The position numbers and the translations under genes are program-made. This document shows, one piece after another, positions 3,017-10,498 of a DNA stretch of 35,175 nt. Numbering within the stretch: position 1 is the stretch's first letter; the number at the start of each line of letters is the position of its first letter. Below the pieces are notes generated by a model, which had not been told where the DNA came from, did no database searches, and worked only from the letters and a program-made list of their open reading frames with translations. The stretch comes from Desulfobacteria bacterium (lineage in GTDB: Bacteria > Desulfobacterota > Desulfobacteria > Desulfobacterales > C00003060): assembly GCA_030145395.1 (NCBI GenBank), contig JAQYVR010000140.1, positions 1 to 35,175 of the forward strand. Direction: 5' to 3'.

Positions 3017-3541
3017 TTACTTCACGAAGCCCCCCAGTTTCTGGACGATCTCATCCAGGATCTGCTCAATGCTCTTAGATGTCGTATCCACAGAGAAATC
3101 CATAGCCCCCCTGTAAAAAGGCTTCCTGAGTTCCAGCACCTCAACTATCTCTTCGTATGGGCCTTGTCCAGTCAGGCTTGGTCTTTGCTCTTCGGTCTTT
3201 TCGTCAGAACGCATTCGTTCAAGTATGGTTTGAGTTGTTGCCTCAAGTAACACGATGATGCCATTTTTTTTCAGATTCTCGACATTTTCAGCGTCCAGGA
3301 CCGCACCGCCACCCGCACCGATTATGTGTTCGTCAAAAGACGACAGCTCTTGGATCGCCTCTTTTTCCTTTGCTCGAAAAAAATCCCAACCTTCTTTTGC
3401 CACCATATCACTAATGGTTCTCTTGGCCTTCTCTTCTATGTAGTTATCAGCGTCACAAAAGGCCTTCCCAAGCCTTTTGGAGAGGGCCCGCCCCACGGAC
3501 GTTTTCCCAGTACACCTGTATCCGATCAAGACTATGTTCAT
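3017..3541 (-). CDS. aroK: Shikimate kinase
   Basis: 'IVLIGYRCTGKTSVGRALSKRLGKAFCDADNYIE' P-loop and shikimate-binding motif, 'GGGAVL'. Confidence 0.93.
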   Translation of the reverse strand: MNIVLIGYRCTGKTSVGRALSKRLGKAFCDADNYIEEKAKRTISDMVAKEGWDFFRAKEKEAIQELSSFDEHIIGAGGGAVLDAENVENLKKNGIIVLLEATTQTILERMRSDEKTEEQRPSLTGQGPYEEIVEVLELRKPFYRGAMDFSVDTTSKSIEQILDEIVQKLGGFVK

Positions 3542-3620
3542 GGGATAGTTGAGTAGTTAAGTGGTTGAGTCGTTAACCGGCCACCCAGTCAACTCATTGA
3601 CGAATTGACCATTTAACCAA
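3541..3620. repeat. Degenerate short-oligomer repeats (TTGAGT/TTAAGT units, then complementary TCAACTCATTGAC units) between aroK and aroA
   Basis: gtTGAGTagTTAAGTggTTGAGTcgTTAA ... TCAACTCATTGACgAATTGACCATTTAAC read directly from sequence. Confidence 0.6.
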
Positions 3621-4875
3621 GTGAATCGAGTTTTTCCCAGAAATCAGGGAACGATTTCTTTACACAGCCTGGGTCCTTGATTGAAATACCCTCTATGGCC
3701 AGGCCTGCTATGGCAAAACTCATGGCAATCCGGTGATCGTCATAACAATCTATTTCAGCCCCACGGGTAGCGATTCCCTGAATGATCATGCCGTCTGCTT
3801 TCTTTTCAACCCGTGCACCGAGCTTTCTTAGTTCATGTGTCAGGGCAGCAACCCTGTCTGATTCCTTAACCCGAAGATGCAATATATTTTGCAGAATGGT
3901 CTTTCCCTTCCTGAAGGCAGAGACCACAGCCAGTGCCGGAACCATGTCTGGCGCATCATTCAAATCAAAGGAAAGATCCTCTTGGTTGGATAACGGCCCG
4001 GTTACTTCAATCCCGTCTTCAGATGCGGACACCTTGCATCCCATTGTTTCCAGGATCTCCAATAGGCGCAAATCACCCTGAAGGGAGTTTCCGTTGATAT
4101 TAGGTATTCTTATCGTTCCACCAACAATGGCAGCTGCTGCCATGAAATAGGTGGCACTGGAGACGTCTCCTTCTATCGCATATTCTTTTGGCTGATAGGC
4201 TTGACGGGCCTTAATATGAAAGAATCTTTCTTCAGAGACCGAGACCTTGACGCCAAAGTGCGCCATGACATCCAGCGTCAGCTTAATATACGGCCAAGAT
4301 GGGACGAGGCTAGACATCCCGATCTCGATATCTTCTTGAGCGTAAGGTGAGGCCAAAAGGAGCGATGAAACGTACTGACTGCTGAGCGCCGTGTCCAGAC
4401 GCGTCTTCCCGCCCGGTAAGCCTTCGGCCTCGACTTGCACGGGCGGGCATCCGGTGCCTGCGACGCAGAAAGCCTTAACACCCATCTTGTTCAGGGCATC
4501 CACAAGGGGCTGGATGGGTCTTTGCCGCATGCGCCTGTTGCCGTCAAGCACAAAGGTGCCGTGCCCTATGGAAACCGTGCCTACAAGAAACCGGAGTCCG
4601 GTTCCGTTGTTTCCGAGGTACAGGGGCGAAGGGGGAGTAACCAGTTTGCCGCCAGTTCCCTCAACCACAAAATCGTGTCCCTGCTGAGTAATGTTAGCAC
4701 CCAGCACACTCAGGGCCTCAATCAAATGCTCGGTATCTTCCGAAATCAACGCATCTTTTATGACAGATCTTCCGGTGGCAAGCGCAGAAGTTATCAGGGC
4801 CCGCTGGGTATAGCTCTTGGAGCCGGGGACGCTGATCACCGTATTGATTTCTCTTATCGGCTTGATCCGCTTCAT
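3613..4875 (-). CDS. aroA: 3-phosphoshikimate 1-carboxyvinyltransferase (EPSP synthase)
   Basis: 'PGSKSYTQRALITSALATG', 'LGNNGTGLRFLVG', 'GNRRMRQRPIQPLVDAL', 'DHRIAMSFAIAGL'. Start assigned to Met20 of the ORF (MKRIKPIREI). Confidence 0.95.
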   Translation of the reverse strand: MKRIKPIREINTVISVPGSKSYTQRALITSALATGRSVIKDALISEDTEHLIEALSVLGANITQQGHDFVVEGTGGKLVTPPSPLYLGNNGTGLRFLVGTVSIGHGTFVLDGNRRMRQRPIQPLVDALNKMGVKAFCVAGTGCPPVQVEAEGLPGGKTRLDTALSSQYVSSLLLASPYAQEDIEIGMSSLVPSWPYIKLTLDVMAHFGVKVSVSEERFFHIKARQAYQPKEYAIEGDVSSATYFMAAAAIVGGTIRIPNINGNSLQGDLRLLEILETMGCKVSASEDGIEVTGPLSNQEDLSFDLNDAPDMVPALAVVSAFRKGKTILQNILHLRVKESDRVAALTHELRKLGARVEKKADGMIIQGIATRGAEIDCYDDHRIAMSFAIAGLAIEGISIKDPGCVKKSFPDFWEKLDSLG

Positions 4876-4949
4876 ATTATTCCAACGTAGCTCACAATTT
4901 GCCTGCCAACCGCCGGCCTCGACTTCAACCACACACTAAAGAAATATCA

Positions 4950-5141: not shown

Positions 5142-6278
5142 TCACTGCGCTTTTAGCCTATCCAGGACGAGGTTTTTCATTAGCTCCGCAGGGGCTTCTT
5201 TCCCGGTCCATATCCGAAACTGTTCCGTGCCCTGAAACAGGAACATCTCAAAACCGCTCGCCACCATGCATCCTGCTGCCTCCGCTTCCCTTAAGAGCAT
5301 GGTCTCAATCGGGTTATATATAACATCCGCCACCGCCTTAAATGATCCCAGCACACCCTTTGGAACGGGCATCTCGTTTTCTTCTGGATACATGCCTATC
5401 GGCGTCGTATTGACCAGGCAGTCTCCGCGAGCACTTTCGATTTCAGAAAGGGAAACAAAGGCACAATCAAATTCCTCGGCCAAGGCACGGCCCTTCTTCT
5501 CTGATCTGTTTACAACAACGGCCTCTCCCCCTTTAGTAGTTACGCCAAAAACGACAGCCCTTGCGGCTCCCCCTGCACCGATCACCACAAATTTATGATC
5601 TTTTATGGGAAGCAATGCCTCAAGACACCTGACGGCTCCAATCCAATCCGTATTGGTACCCCGCACCCCTTCTGTTCCAAAGACCAAGGTGTTGACGGCC
5701 CCAATTCTTTCGGCCGTATCATCAACTTTATCGATTAATGCAGATATCTCTCTCTTGAAGGGATGAGTCACGCTTGCCCCCTTGATTCCAAGGGCCTTCA
5801 TTCCGGCCACGGCGCCTTGCAGTTCTTGCACCTCAAAGGGGAGGTAGATAGCATCTATGCCCAGGAATCTGAATGCAGCATTGTGCATCAGGGGGCTCAT
5901 GCTGTGTGCTACGGGGTTTCCCAGAATACCATAAACGGAGGTATGTCCACTCAGCATGCCCGCGTCACTGTCAGCAGCCGATCTTATATGAGGTTCAGAG
6001 TCGTCTCCCCTTATATTAGACTGCAATTCTCTTGAAATCGAGATTATCTCGCCAAATATTCTGCTGACTTCCGAAGTGTTGAGAGGGCCCTCGTTGTGCT
6101 GGGCGAGATACCTGAATATCAACTCTTCCCTGCTATGGTCATAGATACTGAGACCGTCTTTGCCCTTCAGTTGGCCAATCTCGGAAGAAACCTCTGCCCG
6201 CTGGTTCAAAAGCTTTAGAAGGGCGCCGTCCAGATCTTCTATCCTGCGTCTCAGCCTGTCTAAGGCATCTTTGCTCAT
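5142..6278 (-). CDS. aroE: Bifunctional chorismate mutase (AroQ type) - shikimate dehydrogenase fusion
   Basis: N-terminal 'LRRRIEDLDGALLKLLNQRAEVSSEIGQLKGKDGLSIYDHSREE...IFGEIISISRELQ' (AroQ fold). C-terminal 'YGILGNPVAHSMSPLMHNAAF', 'NTDWIGAVRCLE', 'VIGAGGAARAVVFG' (AroE). Confidence 0.93.
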   Translation of the reverse strand: MSKDALDRLRRRIEDLDGALLKLLNQRAEVSSEIGQLKGKDGLSIYDHSREELIFRYLAQHNEGPLNTSEVSRIFGEIISISRELQSNIRGDDSEPHIRSAADSDAGMLSGHTSVYGILGNPVAHSMSPLMHNAAFRFLGIDAIYLPFEVQELQGAVAGMKALGIKGASVTHPFKREISALIDKVDDTAERIGAVNTLVFGTEGVRGTNTDWIGAVRCLEALLPIKDHKFVVIGAGGAARAVVFGVTTKGGEAVVVNRSEKKGRALAEEFDCAFVSLSEIESARGDCLVNTTPIGMYPEENEMPVPKGVLGSFKAVADVIYNPIETMLLREAEAAGCMVASGFEMFLFQGTEQFRIWTGKEAPAELMKNLVLDRLKAQ

Positions 6279-7381
6279 CCCCGAAGCTCCTCAATGGTCT
6301 CCACCACGACATCCGAAGGGATATCGGGCGTTACAAAAGGGACGCCTATCTCTTTTACCAGCACAAAGTGAAGCCGCCCTGCAACGACTTTTTTGTCGGT
6401 CTCCATGAACGCCACGATCCGGGATGTCTCCATGCCTGCCGGAATCTTGACAGGAAGCTCGTACTCTTTGATCAGGTCAATGATCCTTGTACAGGAATCC
6501 CCATCCAGGTAATTCAGCTTGTGGGAAATCTTTGCAGCACCCACCATTCCGATCGAGACCGCCTCGCCATGGAAAAGGCTATAACCCGACGACGCCTCGA
6601 GTGCATGCCCCAGAGTATGGCCAAAATTGAGAATACGCCTCAAGCCGAGTTCTTTTTCGTCCATCTCCACAATGTCTGCCTTTATCTTGCAGGAACGTGC
6701 AATCAAGCTTTTCATCAGAGAAGGACTACGCTTTTTGATCCCGTCTTTTTCGAGCTCAAGGAGTTCGAACAGATCGTGACTTCCTATTATGCCGTATTTT
6801 ATTATCTCGGCCAACCCATTGGCAAAATCCTTATCCGAAAGCGTTTTGAGGAATGACAGGTCTACGTAAACAGCCTTTGGCTGATAGAATGTCCCTAAAA
6901 GATTCTTGCCCTCAGGAAGATCCACCCCGGTCTTTCCACCCACGCTGCTGTCCACCTGGGCAAGAAGTGTTGTGGGAATCTGAACATAGGGAATCGACCT
7001 CATGTATATGGATGCGATGAAGCCCGTCACATCGCCCACCACTCCGCCACCCAGGGCAATAAGCAGCGATTTCCGGCTCACCCTTAGCTCAACAAGTTGC
7101 TTTGCCACTTCAAGGACGGTATTGAGTGATTTCGAAGCCTCACCAGCGGGTATTTCGATGATATCAACAGGGAGGGCCGTCTCCTTCAATTTCTCCTTTA
7201 CCACTTCTCCAAATAGCGGGTTGACATCTGAGTCTGTAACGATCACGTACCTGTCTGCATGATTCTTGATCTTGGTGACCAATTCCGCGCGGCCCATGAC
7301 ATCTTCACCGATAAGAATATCATATGAATCCTTGCAAGACTTTTCCAGATGCACCCTAATGCGCTCCATGAGCTTCTGCAT
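6275..7381 (-). CDS. aroB: 3-dehydroquinate synthase
   Basis: 'GGGVVGDVTGFIASIYMRSIPYVQIPTTLLAQVDSSVGGKTGVDLPEGKNLLGTFYQP', 'RRILNFGHTLGHALE'. Overlaps aroE start by 4 nt. Start could be 7381 or 7369. Confidence 0.96.
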   Translation of the reverse strand: MQKLMERIRVHLEKSCKDSYDILIGEDVMGRAELVTKIKNHADRYVIVTDSDVNPLFGEVVKEKLKETALPVDIIEIPAGEASKSLNTVLEVAKQLVELRVSRKSLLIALGGGVVGDVTGFIASIYMRSIPYVQIPTTLLAQVDSSVGGKTGVDLPEGKNLLGTFYQPKAVYVDLSFLKTLSDKDFANGLAEIIKYGIIGSHDLFELLELEKDGIKKRSPSLMKSLIARSCKIKADIVEMDEKELGLRRILNFGHTLGHALEASSGYSLFHGEAVSIGMVGAAKISHKLNYLDGDSCTRIIDLIKEYELPVKIPAGMETSRIVAFMETDKKVVAGRLHFVLVKEIGVPFVTPDIPSDVVVETIEELRG

Positions 7382-8393
7382 ACCCCTTTCTGACGATCTT
7401 TGCAATCGATTCAATTTCGCGCATGAGATCGTAGAATCTTTCAGGCTTCAGGGACTGAGGGCCGTCTGACAATGCGTGCTGGGGGTCCGGATGGACTTCT
7501 ATCATCAAACCATCGGCTCCAACTGCAACAGCGGCCTTGGCCAGGGGGAGTACGAACTTCCACTTGCCGATAGCATGACTGGGATCAACAATGACTGGCA
7601 GGTGTGTCTTATCCTTTAGCACCGGTACCGCACTGATATCAAGGGTGTTACGCATTGCGGTTTCAAAGGTGCGAATACCCCGCTCGCAAAGTATCACATT
7701 AGCGTTGCCAGATGCCAAGATGTACTCTGCGGACATGAGGAGTTCTTCCAGTGTGGTCATCATTCCTCTTTTTAAGAGCACAGGCTTCTTCGCCTGCCCC
7801 ACGGCCTTCAGGAGCGCAAAGTTCTGGACGTTCCTGGCCCCCACTTGAAGCACGTCGGCATAACCCTCAATAAGTTCTATATCCGAGGCCCTCATGACTT
7901 CGGTAACCACGGGGAGGCCTGTTTTCTCCCGAGCCTTGGCAAGGATTTTCAGCCCCTCTTCTCCCAGCCCCTGAAAACTGTATGGAGATGTCCTTGGTTT
8001 AAAAGCCCCTCCTCTCAGCATAGATGCGCCTCCTTTTTTTACAACAGAGGCGGCCTCCATAAGCTGTTCAGAGCTCTCCACGGCGCACGGCCCTGCAATG
8101 ACCACGCATTTCGGCCCACCTATCTCTACATCTCCGACCGTGATCACGGTATCCCCCTGCTTGGTCTCCCTGCTTGCAAGCTTGTACGGCTGCAAGATGG
8201 GCATAACCTTTTCAACCCCCGGCCAAGTTTCTACGGCTTTCAGAAAGACCTTTCCCCGCTCATCCCCGATAGCTCCGATAATGGTCCTTTCTACACCTTT
8301 AGATACGTGTGCTTTGTACCCTGCCGCTTCTATCCACTCGAGCACTTTCTCTACCGCCTTCTCATCGGCCTTATTCTTCATGACAATAATCAT
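7356..8393 (-). CDS. aroF: 3-deoxy-7-phosphoheptulonate (DAHP) synthase, type I-beta with N-terminal ferredoxin-like regulatory domain
   Basis: '[11 protein letters not shown]', '[23 protein letters not shown]', '[10 protein letters not shown]', '[19 protein letters not shown]'. SD GGGAGG 7 nt upstream of ATG 8393. Confidence 0.95.
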
Positions 8394-8422: not shown

Positions 8423-8452
8423 GGGCCGCGGTGATCTTTGCCGCCGCGGCCC
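8423..8452 (-). promoter_or_regulatory. GC-rich hairpin in the aroF 5'-UTR, downstream of the attenuator terminator
   Basis: GGGCCGCGG-N12-CCGCGGCCC perfect 9-bp stem, about 30 nt before the aroF ATG. Confidence 0.75.
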
Positions 8453-8456
8453 GTTA

Positions 8457-8502
8457 TCAAAAATAAAAAAGCCGGGGACAGGTCATCTGGCCTGCCCCCG
8501 GC
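8457..8502 (-). terminator. Intrinsic terminator (attenuator) upstream of aroF
   Basis: Minus strand: GCCGGGGGCAGG-ccagatga-CCTGTCCCCGGC (12-bp stem, one G-U) followed immediately by TTTTTTATTTTT. Confidence 0.9.
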
Positions 8503-8562
8503 TCAAAGTTTTTATGGCTGATTTCTTTCTAAGATATCCTCCCGTCAAGCCATGGGCAGACC
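8489..8562 (-). promoter_or_regulatory. Predicted antiterminator (2:3) pairing of the aro attenuator
   Basis: Region 2 GGUCUGCCCAUGGCUUGA (8545-8562) pairs with region 3 UUGAGCCGGGGGCAGGCC (8489-8506) with a single A-G mismatch. Region 3 includes the terminator 5' arm. Confidence 0.75.
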
Positions 8563-8630
8563 TGTCCATAGTGCCAATAATAATAGTAGCAAGTAAATAT
8601 GCCCATCTGTTTGTACCTTCTAATGTCCAT
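8529..8630 (-). CDS. aro operon leader peptide, 33 aa: MDIRRYKQMGIFTCYYYYWHYGQVCPWLDGRIS
   Basis: Minus-strand ATG at 8630, SD GGAG 6 nt upstream, stop TAG ending at 8529. Seven codons TAC TAT TAT TAT TGG CAC TAT (YYYYWHY) lie just upstream of the antiterminator and terminator segments. Confidence 0.85.
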   Translation of the reverse strand: MDIRRYKQMGIFTCYYYYWHYGQVCPWLDGRIS

Positions 8631-8653
8631 ACTATTCTCCACGTGTGCATCAG

Positions 8654-8682
8654 AAAATGCCACTTCTTATCCTTGGTGTCAA
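8654..8682 (-). promoter_or_regulatory. Candidate sigma70 promoter for the aro leader
   Basis: Minus strand TTGACA (8677-8682), 17-bp spacer, CATTTT (8654-8659, weak -10), about 24 nt before the leader peptide ATG. Confidence 0.5.
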
Positions 8683-9544: not shown

Positions 9545-9748
9545 CTCCTTGATGGATCCCCCCATGTTTTTCCGACTTTGCAGTGATTGAACCTTCCTGC
9601 CGCAAAGCGCCGACACGCCCCACCCATTTTGGCTTCACCCCCATCGAGTCTGATGACGACAGCATACCCTCTGGCGTTTCAAAACCAAAGAGAGTCGGTC
9701 TCTCGGCTATTGATAATAAGCATAATTTTGGCTATAAAAACGTCTACA

Positions 9749-10498
9749 ATGGTCACACAAAAGAACTCCAAGCAGCTTCACAAATTAATGGCCTACATCC
9801 TGGGGCGACGCCCCGATGAGTTTGGACTGGTGTTGGACGATCAGGGGTTTGTCCGCCTCAAGGATCTGCTCAAGGCAATTTCAGAGGAACCCGGATGGGG
9901 ATATGTAAGGAAATCCCACATCCAAGAGGTCCTCGTTGCTTCCGGCGAAAAGCCCTTCATTGCAGAAAATGAGAACATCCGGGCCGTTTTCCGCGATAAG
10001 ACCCCACAACCTGAAGATGGCGTAGCACCCCCAAAGCTTCTTTATCACCCCGTGCGTCGCAGGGCCTATCCTGTTGTTTGTGAGCATGGCATTTTGCCGT
10101 TAGGACAACCCCGGGTCTTCCTGACCACAACCCGGGACTTGGCACAGCGCATTGGAAAGCGCAGAGATTCGGAACCAGTGTTGTTGACCGTGCAAGCACG
10201 AAGGAGTTTTGAAGCAGGCGTGAGATTTTCAAAATACGGTGAAGTCATCTACATGACCGATCATGTCCCTGTGAGTTATTTCACGGGGCCACCCCTTCCA
10301 CAAGAAAAGAAGAAGGAAGCCCCTATACCCAAAAAAGAGCCGGCTGCAACATCCGAGGAGCTGCCAGGCAGTTTTGCCCTGGACGTGAAACGCTCCCAGG
10401 CTCTTCAGAAACAGTCATTGAAGCGAAAAGGGCTCAAGAAGGAAATTGCCTGGAAGAGAGATGCCCGAAGGTCGAGACGCAAGGGCAAGAAAAAGTAA
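9749..10498 (+). CDS. KptA/Tpt1-like RNA 2'-phosphotransferase family protein with altered active-site motifs and a Lys/Arg-rich C-terminal tail
   Basis: 'LHKLMAYILGRRPDEFGLVLDDQGFVRLKDLLKAI', 'LYHPVRRRAYPVVCEHGILPLGQPRVFLTTTRDLAQRIGKRR...GEVIYMTDHVPVSYF' parallels KptA domains. Start taken as Met55 of the listed ORF. Confidence 0.65.
   Translation: MVTQKNSKQLHKLMAYILGRRPDEFGLVLDDQGFVRLKDLLKAISEEPGWGYVRKSHIQEVLVASGEKPFIAENENIRAVFRDKTPQPEDGVAPPKLLYHPVRRRAYPVVCEHGILPLGQPRVFLTTTRDLAQRIGKRRDSEPVLLTVQARRSFEAGVRFSKYGEVIYMTDHVPVSYFTGPPLPQEKKKEAPIPKKEPAATSEELPGSFALDVKRSQALQKQSLKRKGLKKEIAWKRDARRSRRKGKKK

Follow-up and report, generated by a model that had tools for sequence, protein, structure and literature searches.

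The window, the whole stretch of DNA that was analysed (35,175 nucleotides; contig JAQYVR010000140.1), derives from a relative of sulfate reducers and carries on its minus strand a shikimate operon, aroF-aroB-CM/aroE-aroA-aroK-aroC, preceded by a Tyr-rich leader. A gene for a KptA/Tpt1-like RNA 2′-phosphotransferase adjoins the operon in divergent orientation (9587–10498, plus strand). The operon genes and the leader elements, all on the minus strand, are as follows.

1883–2935, minus: aroC, chorismate synthase (NF003793), the final operon gene in the window
3017–3541, minus: aroK, shikimate kinase (PF01202)
3613–4932, minus: aroA, EPSP synthase (TIGR01356)
5142–6278, minus: CM-AroE fusion, chorismate mutase-shikimate dehydrogenase (PF01817 and TIGR00507)
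6275–7414, minus: aroB, 3-dehydroquinate synthase (TIGR01357)
7356–8393, minus: aroF, type Ib (B. subtilis/T. maritima-like) DAHP synthase with a ferredoxin-like domain (NF006421, TIGR01361, PF18152)
8423–8452, minus: second hairpin T2 (5:6), GGGCCGCGGCGGCAAAGATCACCGCGGCCC, with segment 5 at 8452–8441 and segment 6 at 8431–8423
8459–8504, minus: terminator T1 (3:4), stem 8504–8469 followed by TTTTATTTTT; matched by a terminator scanner
8469–8483, minus: segment 4, the 3′ arm of T1, with segment 5 as an alternative partner by complementarity
8489–8506, minus: segment 3, antiterminator partner and 5′ arm of T1; 17/18 pairs with segment 2
8545–8562, minus: segment 2 (GGTCTGCCCATGGCTTGA), with its core GGTCTGCCC at 8562–8554; nearly fixed in nucleotides, pairs with segment 3
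8568–8588, minus: control codons TAC TAT TAT TAT TGG CAC TAT (Tyr-Tyr-Tyr-Tyr-Trp-His-Tyr)
8600–8606, minus: segment 1 (ATGGGCA), 7 bp with its partner TGCCCAT of segment 2 (8558–8552)
8529–8630, minus: predicted leader peptide ORF of 33 codons, MDIRRYKQMGIFTCYYYYWHYGQVCPWLDGRIS; orthologous Tyr-rich ORFs in 21 relatives
8637–8640, minus: Shine-Dalgarno GGAG of the leader ORF
8677–8682, minus: −35 box TTGACA, with a 17-nt spacer to a weak −10 CATTTT at 8659–8654

The TTGACA box, Shine-Dalgarno GGAG, 33-codon ORF, control codons, and terminator that a preliminary description had reported on the minus strand were all recovered at the same positions. The putative ribosome-binding site and short ORF lie between the promoter and the first gene, and the predicted peptide contains six Tyr, two Trp, and one Phe. 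A generic promoter scan of the window did not list a promoter at TTGACA 8682–8677, and the −10 (CATTTT) is poor; a TTGAC box is present at the equivalent place in 21 of 22 leaders. T1, an intrinsic terminator ahead of the first gene, comprises 14 pairs and a U-tract reaching 8459. Our analysis adds three observations to the preliminary description: the hairpin T2, a Phe sister leader, and the failure to find tyrA in the assembly. The U-tract of T2, ATTCTATTT, is weak in the window and stronger in relatives, and the terminator scanner did not call T2 in the window.

The 21 relatives with a Tyr-rich leader comprise 14 further members of the genus and seven more distant loci, in which AroF is ~70% (L021–L026) or 66–67% (L104) identical. 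The leader of one genus member (L017) lacks a start codon, apparently through a deletion. The chance rate was taken from 83 related loci rather than from the window's own genome: their 1.59 million strand-bases yielded 14 short ATG-initiated ORFs with at least four Tyr in seven codons, of which 12 were this leader; the window holds one such Tyr-dense short ORF, the leader itself. Codon choice at fixed Tyr positions alternates among the relatives (72 TAT, 33 TAC), indicating that the amino acid is what is kept. The conserved run points to Tyr as the amino acid concerned, though tyrA belongs to the operon in five relatives, after aroC, and not in the window. Segment 2 is conserved as nucleotides, matching its pairing with T1: a single C-to-U change in segment 2 of L012 is accompanied by matching changes in segments 1 (TGAAC) and 3 (GAGC), and L104 has ATRP in place of the VCP residues yet retains the RNA pairing with T1. 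The alignment of orthologous upstream regions therefore bears out what the preliminary description had expected of it, since the relatives share the Tyr-rich ORF, antiterminator segment, and terminator and the compensatory changes in T1 exceed all 500 shuffles.

Three genus members, L006, L009, and L010, which lie apart from one another in the tree, have no leader, and unrelated coding sequence or repeats now occupy the DNA above. Of the three, L006 retains an intact T1, L009 has an eroded one, and L010 has none; a terminator kept after loss of the ORF, which the preliminary description had named as evidence against its reading, was thus encountered in L006 only. The coding sequence replacing the leader in L009 ends in a Cas6-like HFGCGTF motif, recognized by eye, and at this locus T2 remains intact.

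Pairing analysis of the leader RNA gave a z-score of −2.96 against dinucleotide shuffles for the fold of 8457–8640. The pairing of 17 of 18 positions proposed earlier between segments 2 and 3 was confirmed, with a duplex energy of −30.1 kcal/mol and with the core of segment 2 set against GGGCAGGCC. This predicted antiterminator would exclude the terminator, overlaps the ORF, and is conserved: across 22 Tyr leaders, 2:3 complementarity was above shuffles in almost all (mean z −2.9), and in 15 genus sequences 82.7% of the 2:3 cells were paired in register versus ≤51% when slid. Covariation of 2:3 within the genus was not above shuffles, because the segment hardly varies. The 1:2 helix claimed for the window is present (7 bp, −12.2 kcal/mol), but across relatives it exceeds shuffles only moderately, with a mean z of −1.4 in which the automated choice misplaced the window's segment owing to an early Tyr, so that the window duplex was computed separately. 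Short and moderately conserved, 1:2 is the least supported helix. Folding had been suggested as a check on the switch and did not reproduce it. With ribosome masks applied, equilibrium folding favored 2:3 as long as segment 4 was absent and T1 in all ribosome states as soon as it was present. Equilibrium folding was therefore rejected as an uninformative switch model, and the switch would have to operate kinetically, like known attenuators.

Taken together, sequence and comparison support a leader ORF that can be translated and whose Tyr run is conserved, a segment 2 that could pair with either 1 or 3, a segment 3 common to the antiterminator and T1, and a T1 placed before aroF. Recurrence of the leader, retention of Tyr through TAT/TAC changes, and conservation of the antiterminator segment at the RNA level make ribosome-mediated attenuation the best reading: the element very probably attenuates transcription of the shikimate operon, mainly in response to charged tRNA-Tyr, with Trp and Phe contributing less. 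The position of tyrA in the five relatives and an analogous Phe leader in the same genome lend further support. A point against this reading is that tyrA was not found in the window's assembly (89% complete) or in 13 other genus assemblies, and that supply through phenylalanine hydroxylase was rejected because none was found across 22 genus genomes, the window's assembly included, which leaves no evident route by which induction could increase Tyr. When Tyr-tRNA is plentiful, the ribosome would clear the Tyr codons, 1:2 would re-form behind it, and segment 3 would pair with segment 4, ending transcription at T1. Under Tyr-tRNA shortage, the ribosome would stall over segment 1, leaving segment 2 to pair with segment 3, so that T1 would be blocked and the operon transcribed. 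In a possible extension, to which we assign about an even chance, the freed segment 4 would pair with segment 5 and T2 would also be disabled. Re-formation of 1:2 behind the ribosome would be needed in replete cells because a ribosome at the stop codon, 13 nt downstream of segment 2, hides only the end of that segment. The trp/phe/his attenuator logic invoked in the preliminary description is hence supported by comparison, but the location of the stop codon beyond segment 2, unlike in trpL, and the second hairpin depart from it.

Two other modes of control were considered and rejected. The leader had no T-box match in Rfam, none of the Rfam amino-acid leader families scored above the gathering threshold, and no T-box was found in the genome, which argues against a T-box or a known Rfam leader. 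TyrR-type repression was rejected because the TyrR-type HTH (TIGR04381, HTH_TypR) was not found in the assembly.

Whether T2 takes part in attenuation is finely balanced. We give slightly less than an even chance to a classical four-segment attenuator in which T1 is the sole functional terminator and T2 is a leftover or an mRNA-stabilizing stem, with no relay. T2 is conserved in most of the genus and in L021–L026, and the weak, uncalled T2 of the window, together with three loci (L090, L016, and L104) that lack T2 yet retain the leader and T1, fits such an arrangement. So does the 4:5 pairing in the genus, which shows no covariation and tolerates a C-C mismatch in five T2-bearing leaders; in the window, 4:5 carries a C-C mismatch and reaches −13.9 to −14.4 kcal/mol, no better than random terminator pairs (p = 0.21). 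On the other hand, the T2 U-tract is good in many relatives, and 4:5 energies within the same system (mean −20.8) lie far beyond those of cross-system pairs (−10.6 to −13.0) and of random terminator pairs (−11.2, sd 4.6). In addition, the arms of T1 and T2 changed jointly between lineages, from GCCGCGGC to GCCATGGC, giving 11 doubly changed cells (0/2000 shuffles), although this may represent a single event.

Sister leaders on other DAHP synthases bear on the same question. The window's own genome encodes, at L002, a DAHP synthase-prephenate dehydratase-ACT (aroF-pheA) fusion, its domains named by inspection, and upstream of it a Phe leader encoding MGKNSDNRVLFVFGLFLFIFRSVHPVV (relatives' version, GRFFFSFRSVHPVV). 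The sister leaders are listed below.

L002:2503–2706 (G000:C255), L114–L128, and L159–L166: Phe leader and tandem terminator-like hairpins before the aroF-pheA fusion, conserved across the order
L109, L112, L134, L148, L149, L151, L152, L156, and L158: Trp-rich leaders before a third DAHP synthase, in several order members
L050, L057, L059, L067, L071, and L074: leader FWYGFYFxPSxRG, in Geobacteraceae, Desulfuromonadales, and Thermodesulfovibrionales

In 21 Phe leaders from across the order, 2:3, 3:4, 4:5, and 5:6 are each 94–99% paired, and compensatory changes occur in all four helices, at or near the shuffle limit; 2:3 complementarity gave a mean z of −3.7 (n = 14). Tandem terminator-like hairpins occur in most Phe leaders. 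The first of them has no U-tract in L161 and L166, so only T2 can terminate there, and only a 4:5 relay would give the leader control over it. Leader ORFs rich in Trp (WRWWW, WCWWW, WWWR, and similar), with hairpins after them, precede a third type-Ib DAHP synthase in relatives, including the genus member G010; no Trp leader was seen before trpE or the third DAHP synthase (L003/L136) of the window's own genome. Geobacteraceae-type aroF homologues carry FWYGFYF-type leaders with two terminator-like hairpins, and their 4:5 energies of −19 to −28 are stronger than 3:4 in five of six. A separate conserved leader-like ORF (WRGRFFFGFTPVRLRAASG) precedes the aroF homologue of L034 and L035 (Nitrospinota and an unclassified bacterium). 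Overall, the two-terminator relay is well supported in the sister leaders and weak in the window itself. Weighing the joint change between lineages against the missing covariation in the genus, the C-C mismatch, and the near-random energy in the window, we consider the relay likely ancestral and its operation in the window uncertain.

A further question is which signal the attenuator reads. It could sense general aromatic starvation or a general slowing of translation through its Phe, Trp, and Tyr codons jointly, Tyr being merely the commonest, an option that we regard as fairly unlikely. Most genus leaders have two to five Phe and one or two Trp around the Tyr run, and the distant L025 and L026 read WWFYFYY. 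The operon of the more distant L021 includes aroD and a gene for the Phe-branch P-protein (chorismate mutase-prephenate dehydratase), and the leaders of the L021 group mix Phe, Trp, and Tyr in keeping with this gene. In C. glutamicum, moreover, the AroR leader with its Phe-Tyr-Phe motif is described in PMC11802643 as responsive to Phe, with no response to Tyr. Nevertheless, the window leader has six Tyr against one Phe and two Trp, Tyr is the sole residue conserved in long runs, and Phe is served by its own leader on the aroF-pheA fusion.

It is very improbable that the ORF encodes a genuine small protein or acts as a nascent-chain arrest peptide, the exit tunnel sensing its conserved GxVCP tail. 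VCP is indeed conserved over long distances, but the third codon positions of the tail hardly vary and complement T1, L104 retains the pairing although ATRP replaces VCP, and N-terminal residues vary freely. A chance Tyr-rich ORF before a constitutive terminator of an upstream gene would account for the T1 that persists without a leader in L006, but is scarcely credible, being already disfavored by the comparative data: such ORFs are rare, this one is conserved in 21 relatives, and T1 eroded (L009) or disappeared (L010) along with the leader.

Leader-peptide attenuators are a known class, and the Tyr leader shares with the enteric trpL and pheL a short leader ORF, a codon run, the alternatives 1:2, 2:3, and 3:4, and an intrinsic terminator before a biosynthetic operon. 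It differs from them in its Tyr-dominated run, a stop codon past segment 2, a second hairpin, control of the common shikimate pathway, and the lack of an Rfam leader match. The Salmonella his leader has segments A–F, of which B:C and D:E form in read-through and E:F is the one terminator (PMC4046918); the relay of 2:3 and 4:5 against 3:4 and 5:6 resembles this arrangement, except that here 3:4 and 5:6 both can be terminators with U-tracts, and the Phe sister leader shows the relay clearly, the window only weakly. Aromatic-codon leaders before DAHP synthase genes also have precedents. The aroR leader that precedes aroF in C. glutamicum (Neshat et al. 2014, as summarized in PMC11802643) is likewise a leader peptide ahead of a DAHP synthase operon and differs in its short Phe-Tyr-Phe motif and reported Phe response. 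Acholeplasma uORFC-13-1 before aroF (PMC8632094) similarly combines a uORF and a terminator, with Phe codons and in a different lineage and RNA.

Partly in related bacteria, attenuators have been predicted before tyrA operons, for example in Desulfovibrio vulgaris and Vibrio (PMC1173090, Table 7), and an unexplained RNA element was reported 5′ of Geobacter aroG-2 (PMC2700814). The passages concerned name no leader peptide or codon run; both are possible relatives of the Tyr leader, and the FWYGFYFxPSxRG leader may be the Geobacter element. For E. coli aroF-tyrA, an old proposal of a Tyr-tRNA attenuator (Camakaris 1980, as cited in PMC2659441) had the same logic and the same target step; control there is now attributed to TyrR repression, whereas no TyrR-type HTH was found here. 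A 2005 survey placed Tyr under T-boxes only, and his, thr, and phe under attenuators (PMC1262725). As T-boxes are the form in which RNA control of Tyr is generally reported (PMC1262725), a leader peptide dominated by Tyr would close a gap in the set of leader-peptide attenuators. We found no description of a Tyr-dominated, two-terminator leader in the openly searchable papers that were covered, so this novelty is provisional.

These comparisons suggest that leader peptides alone can suffice for feedback specific to each isozyme at the first aromatic step, in a genome with no detected TyrR-type HTH or T-box, and the two-terminator relay would be an extension of the his mechanism. Given the Phe leader on the aroF-pheA fusion and the Trp leader often found on the third DAHP synthase of relatives, the isozymes of DAHP synthase tend, as judged from their upstream regions, to have an aromatic leader each. 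More tentatively, and at somewhat less than even probability, three DAHP synthase isozymes of these bacteria may each be governed by their own leader peptide (Tyr, Phe, and Trp) through a shared relay with two terminators, both of which a single stalled ribosome would disable, by 2:3 and then 4:5. If true, this three-leader scheme would be an RNA-only counterpart of the enteric TyrR/TrpR control of DAHP synthase isozymes.
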